IMG/VR virus record: IMGVR_UViG_3300010392_000972
Coordinates: 1-22,024 of that record
From: a virus
Direction: 5' to 3' (one strand)
DNA length: 22,024 nucleotides
The notes beneath the pieces are model-generated. The model was not told where the DNA came from and did not search any database. It saw only the letters and a program-made list of their open reading frames with translations. Positions within the stretch are counted from its first letter, which is position 1. Every line of letters starts with the position of its first letter. A program made the translations under genes and the position numbers. Positions 1 to 13,298 of the stretch are shown here, piece after piece.

Positions 1-5
1 ACCAA

Positions 6-17
6 GGCCCGCGGGCC
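6..17. repeat. 12-bp perfect GC palindrome
   Basis: GGCCCGCGGGCC reads identically on both strands and lies in the GC-rich left edge. It could form a hairpin or be a protein-binding site. No run of T follows closely enough to make it a standard terminator. Confidence 0.6.
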
Positions 18-120
18 GCGCACCGCGCGACCCCCATCCCCCCTTTTTGCGCCCCCGCCTCCGTGCGCGCCGACCTTTATTATTAGTATCATAAAAAATG
101 TCAGACCTAATTACGTTGGG

Positions 121-139
121 CCACAAGTAGACCACAAGT
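121..139. repeat. CCACAAGT direct repeat, operator-like
   Basis: CCACAAGT occurs at 121-128 and again at 132-139, an 11-bp period that places both copies on about the same face of the helix. A 7/8 copy, CCACATGT, lies at 171-178, just before the candidate promoter. Repeats phased like this upstream of a first gene often bind a regulator. The binding role is inference. Confidence 0.4.
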
Positions 140-239
140 TACCCATCCCCCTCTTAATCAGGCAAATGCGCCACATGTTTTCCGCTTACAAAAATCGCGG
201 GGATATTTTCGTTCGGGTCTTTGTGGTAGGATCGGTAGC

Positions 240-434
240 ATGTTTGTCCCGTTGATCCTCATATGTAGCCTTGAGCTAGGTTGTAAGACCATCGCAGGTC
301 CGATGGTCGAGGACCTAGAGTCGTGCTACGCGGCTCTCGACGCTGGATCCTTGGTCCTTGCACCTCGGTTGGTTGATGGTGCGAAGATATCCGGGGGTCA
401 TTGTTTAGAGTGGATTTCTGGGGAGCCTGCTTAA
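240..434 (+). CDS. Small four-cysteine phage protein, unknown function
   Basis: A 64-residue protein that starts with a hydrophobic stretch (MFVPLILICSLELG) and has four cysteines, at about residues 9, 15, 29 and 54, spaced as if for two disulphides or a metal site. The hydrophobic start could be a beta strand or a weak export signal. The residue three before Cys15 is Glu, which argues against a lipoprotein signal. The stop codon overlaps the next start as TAATG, so the two genes are probably translationally coupled. Its style (small, Cys-rich, GP and GG turns) resembles small hypothetical proteins of marine phages, but I cannot name a function. It is the first gene after the non-coding region. 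Confidence 0.6.
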   Translation: MFVPLILICSLELGCKTIAGPMVEDLESCYAALDAGSLVLAPRLVDGAKISGGHCLEWISGEPA

Positions 435-919
435 TGTTGGATGAGATTAAGGTTATCGCGGGCATTATGGCCGCGGTTGTTGGCGTGTTCAGCGGTGTAG
501 TTACGTTGAGCGGCAAGTTGGGTTTTGAGTTCTGGAGTCGTCCTATTTTGGAGTGGGCTCCGGAGCAGTTTGAGATTGTTGGTGGTCCAGCTGACGGTGG
601 GTTTAAGGTTGTAGCTGCGAGGACCAAGTTGCGGGATGACTGTGAGGTGGTTGGTTTTGCTGTGGAGATTAGGGATGCTGACTACATTGTTTATCCTGCT
701 ACACCTAGTGCGACTCGATTTAGCGGAGCTGCGAGTGGTGTGGTTGAGAAGTTTGGATTTTATGTATTTTTGCATGAGATGGATGTACACAAGGTTCGTC
801 CTGGGACTGCGACATTGCTGGCTCAGATTAAGTATGATTGTCCGGAGGGTGAGCAGATTGTGACGTATCCTCCGATGTTGAATTTTCAGATTGAGGAGCC
901 TGGTGATGTTGGTTCGTGA
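434..919 (+). CDS. Membrane-anchored phage protein with beta-rich outer domain
   Basis: A 161-residue protein. The start at 434 is chosen over an upstream ATG at 401 because it overlaps the previous stop as TAATG. Residues about 5-28 form one hydrophobic helix (IAGIMAAVVGVFSGVV), likely a membrane anchor. The rest is a beta-rich domain with conserved-looking segments such as VEIRDADYIVYP, ATLLAQIKYDCPEGEQ and a closing LNFQIEE strand, giving an Ig-like impression. The domain has two cysteines. Codons end mostly in T or G (TTG Leu, GTT Val), unlike the C-ending capsid genes. A role in the envelope, such as spanin-like or superinfection exclusion, is possible, but nothing in the sequence decides it. 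Confidence 0.75.
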   Translation: MLDEIKVIAGIMAAVVGVFSGVVTLSGKLGFEFWSRPILEWAPEQFEIVGGPADGGFKVVAARTKLRDDCEVVGFAVEIRDADYIVYPATPSATRFSGAASGVVEKFGFYVFLHEMDVHKVRPGTATLLAQIKYDCPEGEQIVTYPPMLNFQIEEPGDVGS

Positions 920-1007
920 GGATTTGCCTGAGTATTCTGTTTATGGCCGGGCTCGTGCTAGGAGCTTTTTCTGGTTGCCTGTGGAATTATTTTTGTATGC
1001 ATGGTAG
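906..1007 (+). CDS. Possible 33-residue protein
   Basis: A short frame that begins inside the end of the preceding gene (14-base overlap) and ends at TAG 1005-1007. GAGGAG at 893-898 lies 7 bases before the ATG, a good ribosome-binding site. The peptide has a charged first half (MLVREDLPEYSVYGRARAR) and a hydrophobic aromatic second half (SFFWLPVELFLYAW), as in small membrane-associated peptides. It fills most of an otherwise empty 120-base gap. At this length it could be chance. The ribosome-binding site and the overlap are the only support. Confidence 0.35.
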   Translation: MLVREDLPEYSVYGRARARSFFWLPVELFLYAW

Positions 1008-1018
1008 GGTTCTTGGGA

Positions 1019-1041
1019 CTTGAACCTCGGACCTTGGACCT
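1019..1041 (+). promoter_or_regulatory. Heptad-repeat leader element, copy 1
   Basis: Directly before the ATG at 1042 stand three 7-base units, TTGAACC, TCGGACC and TTGGACC. The 20-base core (1019-1038) matches 19 of 20 bases of a second element at 2243-2262 that also sits just before a start codon. GGTTC at about 1009-1013 can pair with GAACC inside the element. No ordinary Shine-Dalgarno sequence is visible at this start. The element may be a translational or transcriptional control site; the function is inferred only from its repetition and position. Confidence 0.5.
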
Positions 1042-1512
1042 ATGGCTAACGACAAAATTGAAGGCATTATTGCGCAGTATCTGAGCATGGGCGATATTGC
1101 GCGTATGCGTGATGCCCCGACGGGTGGTTATTTGTCCACGGAGCGACAGATCCACCGCCTTGGTCAGGACAACCGTGACACCACCCGGCATATTCCTTTG
1201 GAGACGAAACAAGACCGTATTCCCGTGGGGGTGTCAGAGGCGTATCGCGATCTTAGGTATGATGATTTTATTGGGTCTGATGACTTTGATAACCGTCCTG
1301 GTCTTCCGTACTATGATCCTGAAACCAAAGAATACATGTCGTTTGATCTAGGTAAGCCAAGCTCAACGAACTCAGATGCAAATATGCTGGAATTATACAT
1401 GGGCGAAGTTCTTGCCTTGCAGCGCAAGGCCGAGGCCGGAGAAGCGAGTCCCGAGGAGCTAGAGCTTTTAGACGCATATAACGAGTTCTTTAGAACACGA
1501 ACGGGAGGATAA
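1042..1512 (+). CDS. Hypothetical acidic phage protein
   Basis: A 156-residue protein I do not recognise. It begins MANDKIEGIIAQYLSMGDIA, has a polar middle rich in Asp, Tyr and Arg (YRDLRYDDFIGSDDF, GLPYYDPETKEYMSF) and ends in a helical, Glu-rich segment (LQRKAEAGEASPEELELL). No membrane segment, cysteine cluster or catalytic motif is visible. The start is the ATG immediately after the heptad-repeat element. Its stop is one base from the next ATG, and that gene's ribosome-binding site (GGGAGG) lies inside this gene's last codons, so the two are probably co-expressed. Confidence 0.75.
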   Translation: MANDKIEGIIAQYLSMGDIARMRDAPTGGYLSTERQIHRLGQDNRDTTRHIPLETKQDRIPVGVSEAYRDLRYDDFIGSDDFDNRPGLPYYDPETKEYMSFDLGKPSSTNSDANMLELYMGEVLALQRKAEAGEASPEELELLDAYNEFFRTRTGG

Positions 1513-1513
1513 G

Positions 1514-1798
1514 ATGTCCGTGATTCCATTTAAGGATGACGACGATTTCAAGAAGCACAACCTGAAGGCTACTGAAGAGGCTGCGAAGGAGCTTCAGGAG
1601 TTTGTTCAGGATTTAGAGTCGTTGGACGCGCAGATGGCGGATTTGCAGCGTGACCGCCAGGACATTTTGACTGTTGTTAAGTCGAAGGGTTACAACGTTA
1701 AGGCTCTTCGGAGGCTTTTGGCTGAGCGCAAGCGCGATGCTGGAGAGTTAGCGGAAGAGAAAGAGACGATTGAGCTCTACCGTAACCTATTGCTGTGA
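1514..1798 (+). CDS. GapR-like DNA-binding protein (DUF2312 family)
   Basis: A 94-residue, almost wholly helical protein. Residues about 24-94 fit the DUF2312/GapR pattern: a coiled-coil helix (LQEFVQDLESLDAQMADLQ), then the family signature KSKGYNVKALRRLLAERKRD at about 56-75, then a Glu-rich helix ending LYRNLLL. In Caulobacter, GapR is a nucleoid-associated protein that clamps overtwisted AT-rich DNA ahead of replication forks and stimulates topoisomerases. Phage copies may bind phage or host DNA during replication. The acidic N-terminal extension (KDDDDF) is an addition relative to the core. The family centres on Alphaproteobacteria, which hints at the host. GGGAGG upstream supports the start. 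Confidence 0.85.
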   Translation: MSVIPFKDDDDFKKHNLKATEEAAKELQEFVQDLESLDAQMADLQRDRQDILTVVKSKGYNVKALRRLLAERKRDAGELAEEKETIELYRNLLL

Positions 1799-1862
1799 CA
1801 TAGTAATCGCATAAAAACTGTGCTACGGTCTGCGCGAAAGACACCCAAGCGCGGAATTTGTT

Positions 1863-2237
1863 GTGTCGAAAAGCACGAGTGTAGGGCGGGCAGGCGAGTT
1901 CCTGGCTGCGTACATCCTGGAGACGTATGGCGTCGAGGTACACCATGTGGACCGCGCGGGATCTGACCTTTGGTGCAAGGTCCAAGGTTCGATACTCACG
2001 GTGCAAGTCAAGTCGAGCAGCAAGCCTGTCCGTTATGGTAACGACACGAAGGAGATGTACACGTACCATACTCCTAAGACGGTTGTTGACTGGTATTGTT
2101 TTGTGGCCTTGGACCGTCAGTTGCTGCTGATGAAGCGCGAGGGTTCGTTTGATACTGCGAAGTTTCGGATCTTGCCTAATGAGTTCAACGAGGCTAATCA
2201 GCGAAGAACGATTGAGGAATTTATGGAAGTCTGTTAG
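1863..2237 (+). CDS. PD-(D/E)XK endonuclease-like protein
   Basis: A 124-residue protein with a GTG start; no closer ATG preserves the conserved N-terminus. The PD-(D/E)XK pattern can be read in order: helix with GRAGEFLAAYIL (Glu12), GSDLW (Asp35), and TVQVKSS (Gln48-x-Lys50), where Gln replaces the usual acidic residue. Gln in that position also occurs in functional members of the superfamily such as some homing endonucleases and related PDDEXK families. It therefore probably cleaves DNA, perhaps as a resolvase or in host DNA breakdown, but substrate specificity cannot be read. A 64-base gap precedes it. The ribosome-binding site is weak (GCGGAA), so it may be expressed at low level. Confidence 0.75.
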   Translation: MSKSTSVGRAGEFLAAYILETYGVEVHHVDRAGSDLWCKVQGSILTVQVKSSSKPVRYGNDTKEMYTYHTPKTVVDWYCFVALDRQLLLMKREGSFDTAKFRILPNEFNEANQRRTIEEFMEVC

Positions 2238-2242
2238 AGTTC

Positions 2243-2263
2243 CTTGAACCTTGGACCTTGGAG
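2243..2263 (+). promoter_or_regulatory. Heptad-repeat leader element, copy 2
   Basis: TTGAACC, TTGGACC and TTGGAGA follow one another here. The core 2243-2262 differs by one base from copy 1 at 1019-1038. The element ends 7 bases before the ATG at 2270, and its last GGAGA (2260-2264) may double as the ribosome-binding site. GTTC just upstream can pair with GAAC across a CTT loop. Its role is inferred from the repetition before two separate genes. Confidence 0.5.
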
Positions 2264-2269
2264 ATAGAC

Positions 2270-2563
2270 ATGGCTCCCAAAAAATCCCTACGCCCTAAGA
2301 TGCGTGAAGATCGCCCATATTTGCCGGAGCATGAGATGTCGGCAAATCAAGCTACTATTCCTGATGCGATTGAGCCGAAGAGTTCTGTTCGCCCGAAGGC
2401 TCGTCCTAAGTATATTGAGGACGATGCTGCTGCGGTGGAGCGTGGTCGTCGGTCCTATGAGCGTGAGATGGAAGACATGCCTCAGAAGTTTGCAAAGGGC
2501 GGCATGGTCCGCGGCTGCAAATCTGAGCAGGTTTCTGGTAAGGGCTTCAAGGGCACGTACTGA
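2270..2563 (+). CDS. Basic small phage protein with KGGMVRG tail
   Basis: A 97-residue protein. ATG 2270 is preferred to an in-frame TTG at 2258 because GGAGA lies just upstream of the ATG. The N-terminal half is rich in Lys, Arg and Pro (MAPKKSLRPKMRED, SVRPKARPKY). The middle is a charged helix (VERGRRSYEREMEDM). The C-terminus is the most distinctive part: FAKGGMVRGCKS, then SGKGFKGTY. The same KGGMV-K/R-G word recurs in the 46-residue protein at 15234. Tails of this style are frequent in uncultured marine phage proteins of unknown role. The next gene starts within the stop (TGATG). Confidence 0.7.
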   Translation: MAPKKSLRPKMREDRPYLPEHEMSANQATIPDAIEPKSSVRPKARPKYIEDDAAAVERGRRSYEREMEDMPQKFAKGGMVRGCKSEQVSGKGFKGTY

Positions 2564-3411
2564 TGGTTAACTTCGCTGAGAGAAGTCGTAATGACATCGC
2601 TATGGATGTCTACACTGCGTTTCGGAACTCTGGTTTTTCGGATGCGCAGTCTCGGGCTTTGACGGCGGAGATTAACCGCGAGAACAGTTTGCGTCCATCG
2701 TTGTTGTTTGGGTCTCATTCGGATCCGTACAACAAGGCGACTAATGTGGGTATGCTTAGCTGGCAGGGGTCTCGCGCTCCTAAGGTTATGAAGTACTTGG
2801 AAGAGCGTGGGTTGATCACGGACAAGGGTACGATTCAGCCTAGTTTCGAGGCTCTTCAGGCTCAGACCGATTTCATTCGCCAGGAGATGGAGGAGAACCC
2901 CTCGTATGCCAAGACGGTTGAGGAGTTTTTGTCCAACCCTGACGTAGATCCGGAGACCGCGAGCCGCGTTCTTGGTGACAACTACATTCGTTGGCGGCGC
3001 ACGGACCCTAAGTACAGCAAGTCTGGTTATGATCGGATTGCCGAAGGGTATCAGTTGCTGGCTTCTGAGGAGCTTTCTGGGGGTTATGCTCCGCCTCGTA
3101 TCTCTACTATGGGCGGTGCGGAGCCTACGGCTTCGGAAGAATTGTACGGGATGTTTGGCGACGTATACGCCACGCCGGAAGAGCGTGCTGCGGCGGATGC
3201 GGAGATGTTGAAACAATCGAAAGCGGCAAATAGGGACGTTGCGGGTGGGGACGCAATGGGTTATTTGTCGGATGCACTAGAATACTTAGACCTGTCACAA
3301 CTAGCGAAAGGACCGTCGGTCCCGAGATCAGTTGGCCCAGGTGTTTATCGTCCTCGTGGGGGCGCTGGAACTAGGGCTCTTCAGCGGTTTGGGATCGCTA
3401 GCTTAGCATAA
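2563..3411 (+). CDS. Phage tail lysozyme-type muramidase
   Basis: A 282-residue protein. Residues about 12-146 match the tail-lysozyme (Phage_lysozyme2) pattern: a helix SGFSDAQSRALTAEINREN with catalytic Glu at about 40, then VGMLSWQGSRAPKVM (67-71 WQGSR being the family hallmark), then a QTDFIRQEME helix and a closing segment GDNYIRWRR. It should cleave the glycan strand of peptidoglycan. The remaining C-terminal part (about 150-282) is low-complexity and unassigned; it might tether the enzyme to the virion. No signal peptide is visible, so it would need a holin or act from the particle. It overlaps both neighbours by one base (TGATG and TAATG). Endolysin or virion enzyme cannot be decided here. 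Confidence 0.75.
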   Translation: MVNFAERSRNDIAMDVYTAFRNSGFSDAQSRALTAEINRENSLRPSLLFGSHSDPYNKATNVGMLSWQGSRAPKVMKYLEERGLITDKGTIQPSFEALQAQTDFIRQEMEENPSYAKTVEEFLSNPDVDPETASRVLGDNYIRWRRTDPKYSKSGYDRIAEGYQLLASEELSGGYAPPRISTMGGAEPTASEELYGMFGDVYATPEERAAADAEMLKQSKAANRDVAGGDAMGYLSDALEYLDLSQLAKGPSVPRSVGPGVYRPRGGAGTRALQRFGIASLA

Positions 3412-3875
3412 TGGAATACAAAACATTCGCCATCGAGCGTTTGCGGGACATTTTGACCTTAGGGATCGCCATGCAGCAGGAGGGCGCGTATAGCGTCATC
3501 CCTTTTGACATCGAAAGAGCTGCTCAATCTATCATTCACATGGTTATCAACAACCCGAACGGGTTTGGTTTGCTGGCATATGACGGCGACAAACCTGTTG
3601 GTATGATTGCTGGAGCTATGGCCCCATATTTTTTTGGTGCCGGAGAGTTAGCCTCTGACTACGTTTGGTATATCGAACCCGAGTACCGAGGTTCACGGGC
3701 CGCGATCCGTTTGCTCAAGGAGTTTAAATCTTGGGCCACGGACATGGGTGCTAGTGAGTTGTACATGGGTGTAACGACCGGGGTATCTGCGGAGCGCACT
3801 GGTCAGCTTTTGCAGCGCCTTGGTTTTAAGCCTGTCGGCGGGAACTACAAGGTGGAGTTGGATGTCAAATCTTAA
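3411..3875 (+). CDS. GNAT-family N-acetyltransferase
   Basis: A 154-residue protein with the GNAT fold signature. An N-terminal alpha/beta part is followed by a strand FGLLAYDGDKPVGMIAGAM, then the acetyl-CoA-binding motif A, VWYIEPEYRGSRAAIRLL (a variant of R/Q-x-x-G-x-G/A), then a helix and the terminal strand region containing GVSAERTGQLLQRLGF. Such enzymes move an acetyl group from acetyl-CoA to an amine on a protein or small molecule; the substrate cannot be predicted. It sits directly before the large terminase and overlaps it by 14 bases, a position where a small terminase is often found. Similar GNAT genes occur near packaging genes in other aquatic phages. Confidence 0.8.
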   Translation: MEYKTFAIERLRDILTLGIAMQQEGAYSVIPFDIERAAQSIIHMVINNPNGFGLLAYDGDKPVGMIAGAMAPYFFGAGELASDYVWYIEPEYRGSRAAIRLLKEFKSWATDMGASELYMGVTTGVSAERTGQLLQRLGFKPVGGNYKVELDVKS

Positions 3876-5349
3876 TGCTTTACCTGATGAGGTACTGAAG
3901 GAGATTCTGGCTCTTACGGAAGCCAAGAAGAAGCTGGATATTCGCGAGAAGGCTACGAACAGTTTTATGGCCTTTGCGCATCATGTGTATGAGAACTTCA
4001 TTGAGGGCGAGCATCACCGGATTATTGCGGAAAAGCTGGAGCGTGTTGCGCGTGGCGAGTTGAAGCGTTTGATTATCAACATGCCGCCTCGTCATTCGAA
4101 GTCTGAGTTTGCTTCATTTTTGATGCCTGCTTGGTTTTTGGGCCGGAATCCGAAGCTCAAGATTATTCAAGCGACACATAACACGGAACTGGCGGTACGA
4201 TTTGGTCGCAAGGTTAGGGATTTGATTGATGACCCGGCATACAAGGAAGTCTTCCCAGGCACCGTCCTTAAAGAGGATAACAAAGGGGCCGGTAAGTGGG
4301 GCACTAACAGGGGTGGCGAATACTTTGCTGCTGGTGTCGGCGCTGCCGTTACTGGCCGCGGCGCTGACTTGTTCATCATTGACGACCCTCACTCGGAACA
4401 GGACGCGTTAAGCGAGACGGCGTTTGATCACGCCTATGAGTGGTACACTTCTGGTCCTCGACAGCGTCTTCAGCCTGGCGGCGCCATCATTTTGGTTATG
4501 ACCCGTTGGGGTAAGAAGGATTTGACGGGCCGTTTGCTAGCAAATCAGACGTCGGATGCCATGGCTGATCAATGGGAAGTTGTAGAGTTTCCGGCGTTGT
4601 TGCCTTCTGGTAGACCACTATGGCCTGAGTTTTGGGAAAAAGACGCACTTCTGTCGATTAAGGCGTCACTTCCGCTTGGTAAGTGGTCGGCTCAGTGGCA
4701 GCAGCAGCCCACGAGTGCGGGTTCGGCCATTGTGCGCCGCGAGTGGTGGCGGAAGTGGGAGAAAGAGAAGATCCCACCGCTGAAGTACATCATTCAAGCC
4801 TACGATACTGCGTTCTCGAAGAAGGAAACGGCGGACTACAGTGCCATTACAACGTGGGGCGTCTTTGAACCCGAGGAGGGGGACAAGGATCACCTGATAC
4901 TTTTGGATGCGCAAAGGGGCCGATGGAGCTTTCCGGAGCTAAAAGAAGTAGCCTTTGAAGAGCATCAGTACTGGGAACCGGACATGGTCATTATTGAGGC
5001 CAAGGCTACGGGTAAACCTCTGATTGACGAGCTGCGCGCTCGGGGTATTCCCGCCCTGGGTTTTTCTCCAGGTAGACGTGCAGGCGGAGGTGGTGTAGAT
5101 AAGACAACTAGAATGCATATGGTGTCACCTTTGTTTGAGGCGGGCTTGGTATGGGCTCCTGAGGACAAAAGATTTGCAGAAGAGGTCATTGAAGAGGTGT
5201 CTTCATTTCCGAATGGCGATCACGATGACTTTTGTGATAGTATGACCCTAGCATTGATGCGTTTCCGCCAAGGCGGGTTCGTGACTATACACGATGAAGA
5301 GCGGCTTGATTTCGCGGATCAGGCGCCTCGTAAACGGGAGTATTATTGA
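3862..5349 (+). CDS. terL: Terminase large subunit
   Basis: A 495-residue DNA-packaging motor and nuclease. ATG 3862 is chosen because GGTGGAG lies just before it; an upstream in-frame ATG at 3820 lies well inside the acetyltransferase gene. ATPase motifs: Walker A MPPRHSKS at 74-81, Walker B LFIIDD at 170-175, and a coupling motif MTRW at about 213-216. The RNase H-like nuclease carries YDTAF (Asp315), VIIEAK (Glu379) and GDHDDFCDS (Asp455, Asp456 and Asp459 region). The architecture matches the PPRH-K-S type of phage terminase with a C-terminal nuclease domain. It would cut concatemers and pump DNA through the portal encoded next. No residue needed for activity looks missing. Confidence 0.95.
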   Translation: MSNLNALPDEVLKEILALTEAKKKLDIREKATNSFMAFAHHVYENFIEGEHHRIIAEKLERVARGELKRLIINMPPRHSKSEFASFLMPAWFLGRNPKLKIIQATHNTELAVRFGRKVRDLIDDPAYKEVFPGTVLKEDNKGAGKWGTNRGGEYFAAGVGAAVTGRGADLFIIDDPHSEQDALSETAFDHAYEWYTSGPRQRLQPGGAIILVMTRWGKKDLTGRLLANQTSDAMADQWEVVEFPALLPSGRPLWPEFWEKDALLSIKASLPLGKWSAQWQQQPTSAGSAIVRREWWRKWEKEKIPPLKYIIQAYDTAFSKKETADYSAITTWGVFEPEEGDKDHLILLDAQRGRWSFPELKEVAFEEHQYWEPDMVIIEAKATGKPLIDELRARGIPALGFSPGRRAGGGGVDKTTRMHMVSPLFEAGLVWAPEDKRFAEEVIEEVSSFPNGDHDDFCDSMTLALMRFRQGGFVTIHDEERLDFADQAPRKREYY

Positions 5350-11733: not shown

Positions 11734-12648
11734 ATGGCTATCTCGCGCGCACAACTCGCGAAAGAGCTGGAGCCGGGTCTTAACGCCCTCTTCGGCATGG
11801 AGTATGGTCGGTACGAAAACCAGCACTCCGAAATCTACACCACCGAGTCGTCGGATCGTGCATTTGAGGAAGAGGTTATGCTGTCGGGCTTCGGCGCGGC
11901 ACCGACCAAATCCGAAGGTTCTGCGATCAACTTTGACGATGCCAACGAAGCGTACACCGCCCGCTACAATCACGAAACGATTGCGCTGGCGTTCTCGCTG
12001 ACCGAAGAAGCCGTAGAGGACAACCTCTATGACCGCTTGGGTTCGCGTTACACCCGTGCGCTGGCTCGTTCGATGGCTCACACCAAGCAGGTTAAAGCTG
12101 CTGCCGTGCTGAACAACGCCTTTGATGCAGGTCCGACTGCAGGTGGCGACGGCAAAGCTCTGTGTGCAACTGACCACCCGCTGACCAGCGGTGGCACTTT
12201 TGCCAACGAGCCCAGCGTTCCTGCTGACCTGAACGAAACCTCGCTGGAAGACGCCTTGATCAACATCGCGGGCTTCGTTGACGAGCGTGGTCTGAAAGTT
12301 GCCCTGCGCGGCATGAAACTCATCATCCCTCGCCAGCTGCAGTTTGTTGCTGAGCGTCTGATGGTTTCGAACCTGCGTGTCGGCACTGCAGACAACGACG
12401 TTAACGCGATCCGTTCGATGGGCATGCTGCCCGATGGTTACACCGTCAATGACTTCCTGACCGACCCTGATGCTTGGTTTGTGAAGACTGACGCGCCTCG
12501 TGGCTTCATCCACTTTGAGCGCACCCCGCTGTCGACCGGCATGGAAGCCGACTTCGACACCGGCAACATGCGCTTCAAGGCTCGTGAGCGTTACAGCTTT
12601 GGCTTCTCGGACCCCCGTGCGGTGTTCGGTTCGCCTGGCGCAGCATAA
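11734..12648 (+). CDS. Major capsid protein (Mu gpT-like, HK97 fold)
   Basis: A 304-residue protein preceded by the strong ribosome-binding site AAGGAGGG. It looks like the Mu gpT-like branch of HK97-fold capsid proteins. An N-terminal arm (ISRAQLAKELEPGLNALFG) is followed by DRAFEEEVMLSGFG, then the spine helix with SLTEEAVEDNLYDRLG, then ATDHPLTSGGTF at about 145-156, then the P-domain strand LKVALRGMKLIIPRQLQF, and a C-terminal FKARERYSFGFSDPRAVFG. No N-terminal delta domain is apparent, consistent with a separate scaffold. Almost all third bases are C or G (CTG, TCG, AAC, CGT/CGC), in contrast to the T/G-ending early genes, as expected of the most highly expressed gene. A strong terminator follows. 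Confidence 0.88.
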   Translation: MAISRAQLAKELEPGLNALFGMEYGRYENQHSEIYTTESSDRAFEEEVMLSGFGAAPTKSEGSAINFDDANEAYTARYNHETIALAFSLTEEAVEDNLYDRLGSRYTRALARSMAHTKQVKAAAVLNNAFDAGPTAGGDGKALCATDHPLTSGGTFANEPSVPADLNETSLEDALINIAGFVDERGLKVALRGMKLIIPRQLQFVAERLMVSNLRVGTADNDVNAIRSMGMLPDGYTVNDFLTDPDAWFVKTDAPRGFIHFERTPLSTGMEADFDTGNMRFKARERYSFGFSDPRAVFGSPGAA

Positions 12649-12711: not shown

Positions 12712-12788
12712 TGCACAGCTCCTGTATGATTTCGGCATCCCTGACAGTCGCATGGTGCGGCTGACACTAGCCACGACAGGAGATCTCC

Positions 12789-13298
12789 ATGGCTAACACG
12801 ACTTTTTCGGGACCAGTTCGCTCCGAGAACGGGTTCAAAACAATCACCAAAAGCGCAACCACTGGTGCGGTAACTGAGATTTCGACTGTTGGTGGGGCTC
12901 CAGTAGCACTGGCCGACGGCGATGTTACTCTTACCAACGCTACCCACAGCGGGCGTGTTTTGGTTGTTCCGGATGGCACTCAAGACAACACCTACACCTT
13001 GCCAAGCCCTGTAGCAGGGGCGATGTTCACCTTTGTCTATGGCGGTGCCGCAGCGGATGCGACGGATTTCATCGTAGACGCAGGTTCGGACACCAACTTC
13101 TTCATTGGCAACGTCGCGTTTAATGACACTGACGATGGCGCAGCTTCGGTGGTTTTTGCTGACGGCAACTCCAACAGCAAACTGCAAGTAAACGTTCCCG
13201 GCTCTGCTGTCATCAACATCATGGCGAAGGACAGCACCAACTGGTACGTTTGGGGTTCCGTTACTGGCGCAACCGCTCCTGCCTTCGCTGACCAGTAA
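12789..13298 (+). CDS. Beta-rich virion protein, putative
   Basis: A 169-residue protein preceded by ACAGGAGA. The sequence MANTTFSGPVRSENGFKTI, with many Thr, Gly, Ala and Asp residues and regular short strands (RVLVVPDGTQDNTYTLP, AMFTFVYGG, DFIVDAG, NWYVWGSV), fits a small all-beta structural protein of aquatic phages. No enzyme motif is visible. It is the first gene after the terminator and is followed by two further beta-rich proteins, so it is probably a head- or fibre-associated component. Codons are mostly C-ending. Confidence 0.7.
   Translation: MANTTFSGPVRSENGFKTITKSATTGAVTEISTVGGAPVALADGDVTLTNATHSGRVLVVPDGTQDNTYTLPSPVAGAMFTFVYGGAAADATDFIVDAGSDTNFFIGNVAFNDTDDGAASVVFADGNSNSKLQVNVPGSAVINIMAKDSTNWYVWGSVTGATAPAFADQ

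Follow-up and report, generated by a model that had tools for sequence, protein, structure and literature searches.

Dispersed tandem heptads in a phage lineage related to HTVC023P, found before start codons and in a promoter-like signal that precedes the small-terminase gene of relatives

The virus record IMGVR_UViG_3300010392_000972, which is classed as linear and possibly a fragment, was analysed over all of its 22,024 bases, and this whole stretch is referred to here as the window. Its portal protein shows 44-57% identity to those of the pelagiphages HTVC023P and HTVC027P, the Roseobacter phages CRP-901 and CRP-902 and phage DSL-LC04, and its closest relative, a contig of 30,178 bases, comes from almost the same phage, three of its proteins being 99-100% identical. 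Gene calls were the greedy longest ORFs, uncurated, and the part of the window of interest here contains the following features.

344-364, + strand: weak array, in sense within a small ORF at 240-434
1013-1040, + strand: array A, TTGGGAC TTGAACC TCGGACC TTGGACC, then T, then ATG at 1042
1042-1512, + strand: gene A, 156 aa, without a hit to Pfam or PHROG at E 0.001
1514-1798, + strand: conserved protein with a GapR-like DNA-binding domain, 94 aa (PF10073, E 5e-14)
1863-2237, + strand: conserved nuclease-like protein, 124 aa, weakly similar to PHROG 5018 and without a Pfam match
1972-1992, − strand: inverted array (core match 1974-1993), inside the nuclease-like ORF, over the codons for WCKVQGS
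2239-2264, + strand: array B, GTTCC TTGAACC TTGGACC TTGGAGA, then TAGAC, then ATG at 2270
2270-2563, + strand: gene B, 97 aa from the ATG, or 101 aa if the in-frame TTG at 2258 is used

The phage-encoded GapR-like protein gene thus sits between arrays A and B. PHROG 5018 is a family of unknown function, and we take the 124-aa protein to be nuclease-like by eye, its D..QVK resembling the PD-(D/E)XK motif. A tRNA or tmRNA as the origin of the motif was rejected, ARAGORN having found neither in the window, and the sole Rfam match in the window at gathering scores was Mu-gpT-DE, far from the arrays. This RNA lies at 12739-12791 on the + strand (73.8 bits against a gathering score of 49), 3′ of the major capsid gene at 11734-12648, which matches Phage_capsid_4 and Mu-like gpT.

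The original prediction had drawn attention to two 20-base cores, CTTGAACCTCGGACCTTGGA at 1019-1038 and CTTGAACCTTGGACCTTGGA at 2243-2262, as near-identical leaders of separate genes, and they do differ at a single base and stop 3 nt and 7 nt short of the ATGs at 1042 and 2270, respectively. Array B begins directly 3′ of the stop codon of the nuclease-like gene, and its last heptad holds a Shine-Dalgarno-like GGAG, 6 nt from the ATG at 2270. The resemblance is, as had been supposed, improbable by chance; allowing up to three mismatches, the core has three matches in the window, compared with a mean of 0.01 in shuffled sequences, none of 100 of which reached three. The single heptad TTGRACC is ordinary (11 occurrences against 6.2 expected, a number reached by 6 of 100 shuffles), and what is unusual is the tandem order of the heptads rather than their count. 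The inverted array at 1972-1992 is probably a protein-driven coincidence with the WCKVQGS motif, because its match decays as the protein diverges. Insertion of an array into the nuclease-like gene was rejected, since the homologs are equally long there save for a one-residue alignment gap. A long-range pairing of 1976-1990 with 2246-2260, exact over 15 nt, was also discarded, as L024 and L016 lose the nuclease half and keep array B.

Arrays A and B do not stand alone as a pair but belong to a dispersed family of direct repeats with a period of 7 and the core GRWCC. We examined 28 contigs (245,781 bases), which comprised the window and, after removal of near-duplicates, contigs from 42 hand-picked loci, mostly the closest, out of 198 protein-query rows with overlaps kept; the window itself had been chosen by the finding, and a search by array had likewise led to the contigs of L007 and L340. 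Pairs of GRWCC occurred 155, 66 and 39 times at distances of 7, 14 and 21, against 14.9 expected, and 3-26 times at each of the remaining distances from 5 to 30. After merging over strands, 78 arrays were obtained at period 7, compared with 0-4 at eight other periods (5, 6 and 8-13). The tandem heptads of the original prediction therefore stand, with their period of 7, but the unit is wider than the proposed TTGRACC, since only GRWCC is constant and the other two bases vary; several loci in this analysis of the unit core, as in those of cultured phages and of small-terminase upstream regions, had been fetched for carrying arrays.

Further copies, on whose absence the prediction would have foundered, are present both in the near-identical longer contig and in other relatives. 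The pattern (TYGRACC)3 was found with up to three mismatches in 10 of 12 records, namely the 30,178-base contig and relatives, with one control match overall; when at most two mismatches were allowed, 11 of 15 records had it and the control gave none. Some of the records in both counts had been found by array. Among loci of at least 6 kb, duplicates included, arrays are present in 12 of 47 terminase relatives, 11 of 21 nuclease-like loci and 24 of 35 small-terminase loci, and the first of these fractions confines the feature to part of the lineage. The cultured relatives HTVC027P, CRP-902 and DSL-LC04 were rejected as models because they have almost no arrays: the first 50,000 bases of each gave no TYGRACC array with up to two mismatches and one with three, and under the core definition DSL-LC04 has arrays at three places (24006, 31848 and 49368), all within annotated genes, and HTVC027P and CRP-902 have none over the same length. 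In two other viral contigs, L012 and L015, heptads resembling TTGGACC or TTTGATC form runs at several places.

Both arrays recur at orthologous places. Array A is the same, or differs at one base, in L007, L008 and L340, and in L340 and L009 the same array is followed by a different gene, of 441 aa; an array also stands before the gene that precedes the GapR-like gene in L319 and L321. In L321 it precedes ATGGCTGAC as in the relatives, while the frame behind it is interrupted, so that reading from the ATG behind its array A does not lead without a break into the homologous ORF. For array B we scored the three best in-register cores in the 60 nt after the nuclease-like gene, and 11 of 24 loci (the window, L316, L317, L320, L026, L321, L024, L016, L028, L030 and L031) had at most two core mismatches; the near-identical pair L324 and L326 had four, and the other 11 loci, one of them cut short, had 5-7. 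The nuclease-like proteins of the carriers include ones only 39-60% identical to that of the window. L016 and L024 have one extra heptad at this site, seen as a clean 7-nt alignment gap, and the DNA past array B often differs between relatives, although in L317 it stays similar. The recurrence at the same places, together with the preference of arrays for the bases before starts described below, bears out the proposal of a shared cis-element.

Repeats of this kind might be neutral simple-sequence DNA, made by slippage and without function. Many bacterial phyla among the matches listed have (TYGRACC)n arrays, of 3 to 32 units (loci L095-L212), slippage seems likely in many of these bacterial genomes, and the extra heptad of L016 and L024 demonstrates that units can be gained or lost whole. 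The phage arrays, however, have 3-5 units as counted here, and neighbouring heptads are identical in only 6 of 175 cases, compared with 454 of 762 in the bacterial loci, which were chosen by an exact three-unit pattern that favours like units. Neither the identical neighbours nor the variable length expected of slippage is therefore seen in the phages, and since adjacent units hardly ever match exactly, slippage is unlikely as a recent source of their arrays. The core moreover recurs at orthologous sites amid diverged surroundings, and the promoter signature described below is almost confined to one gene context, so that we regard a neutral origin as decidedly improbable. Given their presence in many bacterial phyla among the matches listed, the heptads point to no one host.

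Among the 78 arrays, 31 are mainly non-coding and 47 lie mainly within predicted ORFs, where some fall on conserved protein motifs. Thirteen stop no more than 20 nt short of a predicted start, compared with 4.4% of random positions, a rate that comes from a set including L039, L417 and L412, which were added after their arrays had been seen and are omitted from the count of 78. The start-touching arrays include those at the place of array A in the window, L007 and L340; in L319 the last heptad contains the ATG of the gene before the GapR-like one, and in L026, L320 and L321 the heptads abut the start of the GapR-like homolog. A probable start codon also lies within heptads at 104-122 (−) of L320 and 3193-3447 (−) of L350, whose proteins would begin MTKVQEP, letters set by the repeat. 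Bacterial arrays collected by pattern alone have a same-strand start no more than 40 nt downstream in 22 of 119 distinct cases and one on the other strand in 7 of 119 (random rate 2.3%; p 0.004 for the strand bias). Viral arrays chosen by pattern also prefer starts, with a weak strand bias (11 versus 7 of 73, p 0.24).

These positions are those that would be expected if the heptads served translational control, an RNA-binding protein recognising them as tandem sites within the mRNA leader. Arrays A and B end 1 nt and 5 nt before their ATGs, B carrying the GGAG, and starts lie in or abut heptads in L319 and, for the GapR-like gene, in L026, L320 and L321; the bacterial strand bias has the same direction. 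On the other hand, the viral strand bias is weak, the most distinctive site lies in a promoter-like signal rather than in RNA, and the five leaders that we folded singly gave z values of −1.06 (A), 0.04 (B), −3.01 (L024), 1.23 and 0.74, with no common fold detectable by eye. The pairing of GTTC with GAAC that had been proposed for both leaders is available in the sequence, where the two stand close together (GTTC CTT GAAC in B), but the predicted folds of leaders A and B are ordinary and the best fold of A avoids it. The leader hairpin envisaged as the site of a translational repressor finds no support in these five single folds, which have nothing in common, although L024 does fold better than its shuffled versions; the most distinctive copy, moreover, lies upstream of the would-be transcription start, and 47 of the 78 arrays are mainly in ORFs. 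Taken together, we consider translational control through the leader unlikely.

A further characteristic of the arrays is their position at the ends of homology. In a blastn comparison of the window with L340, homology stops at 1050 and 2265, the 3′ ends of arrays A and B; the 5′ part of gene B has no homology there, and its 3′ end (2498-2566) is homologous. An end of homology lies within 10 nt of 32 of the 78 arrays, against a random value of 12.4 (sd 3.1, maximum 23 in 300 sets), and occurs at 9 of 13 start-upstream segments with an array compared with 114 of 348 without (Fisher p 0.009). The heptads could accordingly be imagined as hinges, short homologies at which modules are exchanged, any regulation being secondary. 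Such hinges would leave the constant geometry before the small-terminase gene unexplained, homology ends occur at array-free gene borders too, and a kept array beside diverged DNA would itself create an end of homology; recombination as the primary role thus appears quite unlikely to us.

The most distinctive site of the family was found in relatives of the window, upstream of a gene whose product is assigned as the small terminase through a 41.5% identical homolog so annotated in HTVC027P. Here three heptads are followed by TG and a hexamer TATAAA, TACAAA, TATACA, TATAAT or TATGRT, an arrangement in which 17 nt separate the −10 from a TTGNNC hexamer ahead of it. The exact pattern TTGNNCCTYGRNCCTYGRNNCTGTAT has 38 matches in viral contigs, near-duplicates included. 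In 36 of them a homolog of the small terminase, 50-98% identical to the query, is encoded further along the same strand, with an extrapolated start 115-417 nt downstream. The other two are L433, a fragment of a contig that does have the gene at its other locus, and L434, which lacks it. The pattern leaves the final three hexamer bases open, and these complete TATAAA in 15 of the 36 loci, TATGGT in 11, TATGAT in 6, TATAAT in 2, and TATACA and TATGTT in one each, so that one of the first four hexamers is formed in 34. Because TTGNNCCTYGRNCCTYGRNNCTGTAT fixes the heptad skeleton and TGTAT, and thereby sets the spacing itself, independent support comes from a pattern without the −10 and from loci obtained by protein queries. 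The heptad-only pattern gave 22 loci in a second phage group, 20 of which have TGTAT next and a small-terminase homolog. Among 85 distinct small-terminase upstream regions, 26 fit the site with no or one mismatch and 59 do not; 18 of the 26 had been fetched by array patterns only, and five (L349, L355, L358, L360 and L371) come from protein queries alone. In the closest relative of the window, heptads stand before the small-terminase gene with no −10, and this, like the 59 regions without a fit, speaks against a universal role.

The unit is TCGGACC in one of the two main groups and TTGAACC or TCGAACC in the other, and in both the 7-nt skeleton runs through the spacer (the row for L225 in this comparison is another array of that locus, not its small-terminase site). 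A blastn search of the promoter-like site of L351 against phages returned only four weak matches, at E 0.6. Some 40-50 nt downstream of the site there is a second shared string, TGATTCGT, in L351, L349, L340, L010, L354, L358 and L360, and the row for L371 is cut within it. Judged by sequence, then, the heptads of the small-terminase site are the −35 element and spacer of a promoter-like, sigma-70-type site, whose 17 nt fall within the 16-18 nt between the hexamers of such promoters, and would act as DNA rather than RNA. Since a promoter needs neither particular letters nor a period in its spacer, the heptads seem to hold a DNA-level constraint of their own. At arrays A and B there is no −10 hexamer at 16-18 nt, and none of the five promoter-like sites found in positions 1-4000 of the window falls on either array.

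The heptads look like real control DNA rather than chance. We tentatively favour, at somewhat less than an even chance, the reading that the arrays are cis-control DNA, tandem binding sites of one putative sequence-specific DNA-binding regulator. The family, present in part of the phage lineage, would then provide the −35 box and 17-nt spacer of the small-terminase promoter, followed by TG and a TATAAA- or TATGRT-like hexamer, and a regulator encoded by phage or host may bind the heptads and so set transcription of the packaging gene. Arrays A and B, directly before a start codon, with no −10 and marking the left edge of segments in which relatives differ, may belong to the same system, copies at other gene starts putting an inserted gene under the same control. 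As these two arrays have no promoter-like site, a single mechanism for all sites is something that we infer rather than observe. More doubtful is the extended form of the regulator reading, in which the degenerate heptad code would be a genome-wide control address and the putative regulator would read stacked GRWCC units both in the spacer of the packaging-gene promoter and where exchangeable genes start.

The cassettes of promoter and stem-loop in T4-type phages, known as PeSL, offer one parallel, being likewise short control elements that border exchangeable phage genes; in the present phages, in contrast, no common stem-loop is seen and neither array A nor array B has a promoter-like site. 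Bacterial heptamer repeats have been recorded before in several genomes, without a mechanism (PMC4679880, PMC2700814, PMC4692102). TAACTGA direct repeats occur in Beggiatoaceae, some Cyanobacteria and Bacteroidetes as heptamers before start codons, for which MacGregor (2015) proposed a translational role through an RNA-binding protein (PMC4679880). They resemble the arrays described here in having units of exactly 7 nt and several sets per genome. They differ in having one exact unit instead of a degenerate unit with a GRWCC core, and in belonging to cellular genomes, mostly with no ribosome binding site, rather than phages (PMC4679880); in the present family, sets just upstream of starts are a minority (13 of 78 within 20 nt) and one orthologous site lies inside a promoter-like signal. 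The Gmet_H4## elements of Geobacter metallireducens, annotated as putative regulatory, are four tandem heptanucleotides of consensus GGACCGG in 49 copies, and they share with our arrays the GGACC core plus two bases, the four units and dispersal between and within genes (PMC2700814). They have a fixed linker and are known from one genome, and no link to start codons or promoters is described in the available part of that report (PMC2700814). The G-rich GGGAATC heptamers of Xanthomonas, similar in Nostoc and studied as possible G-quadruplex formers, are also dispersed arrays, most xanthomonad ones having four units, but they reach 26 units and contain runs of at least three G, which are mostly absent from the phage heptads (PMC4692102). 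In the part of the literature searched, no title or abstract opening among the papers listed described such repeats in phages, and the words promoter and intergenic do not appear in the available main text of the paper on HTVC023P-type phages (PMC9599517).

Here such repeats occur in phages, and at one orthologous site they keep the same promoter-like geometry ahead of a gene that is already known, which makes the question of the role of heptamer repeats testable with a simple reporter. A link between arrays and the borders of differing segments would bear on how swapped phage modules retain control signals and, if the heptads do serve as a control address, any gene landing behind an array would join the same programme.
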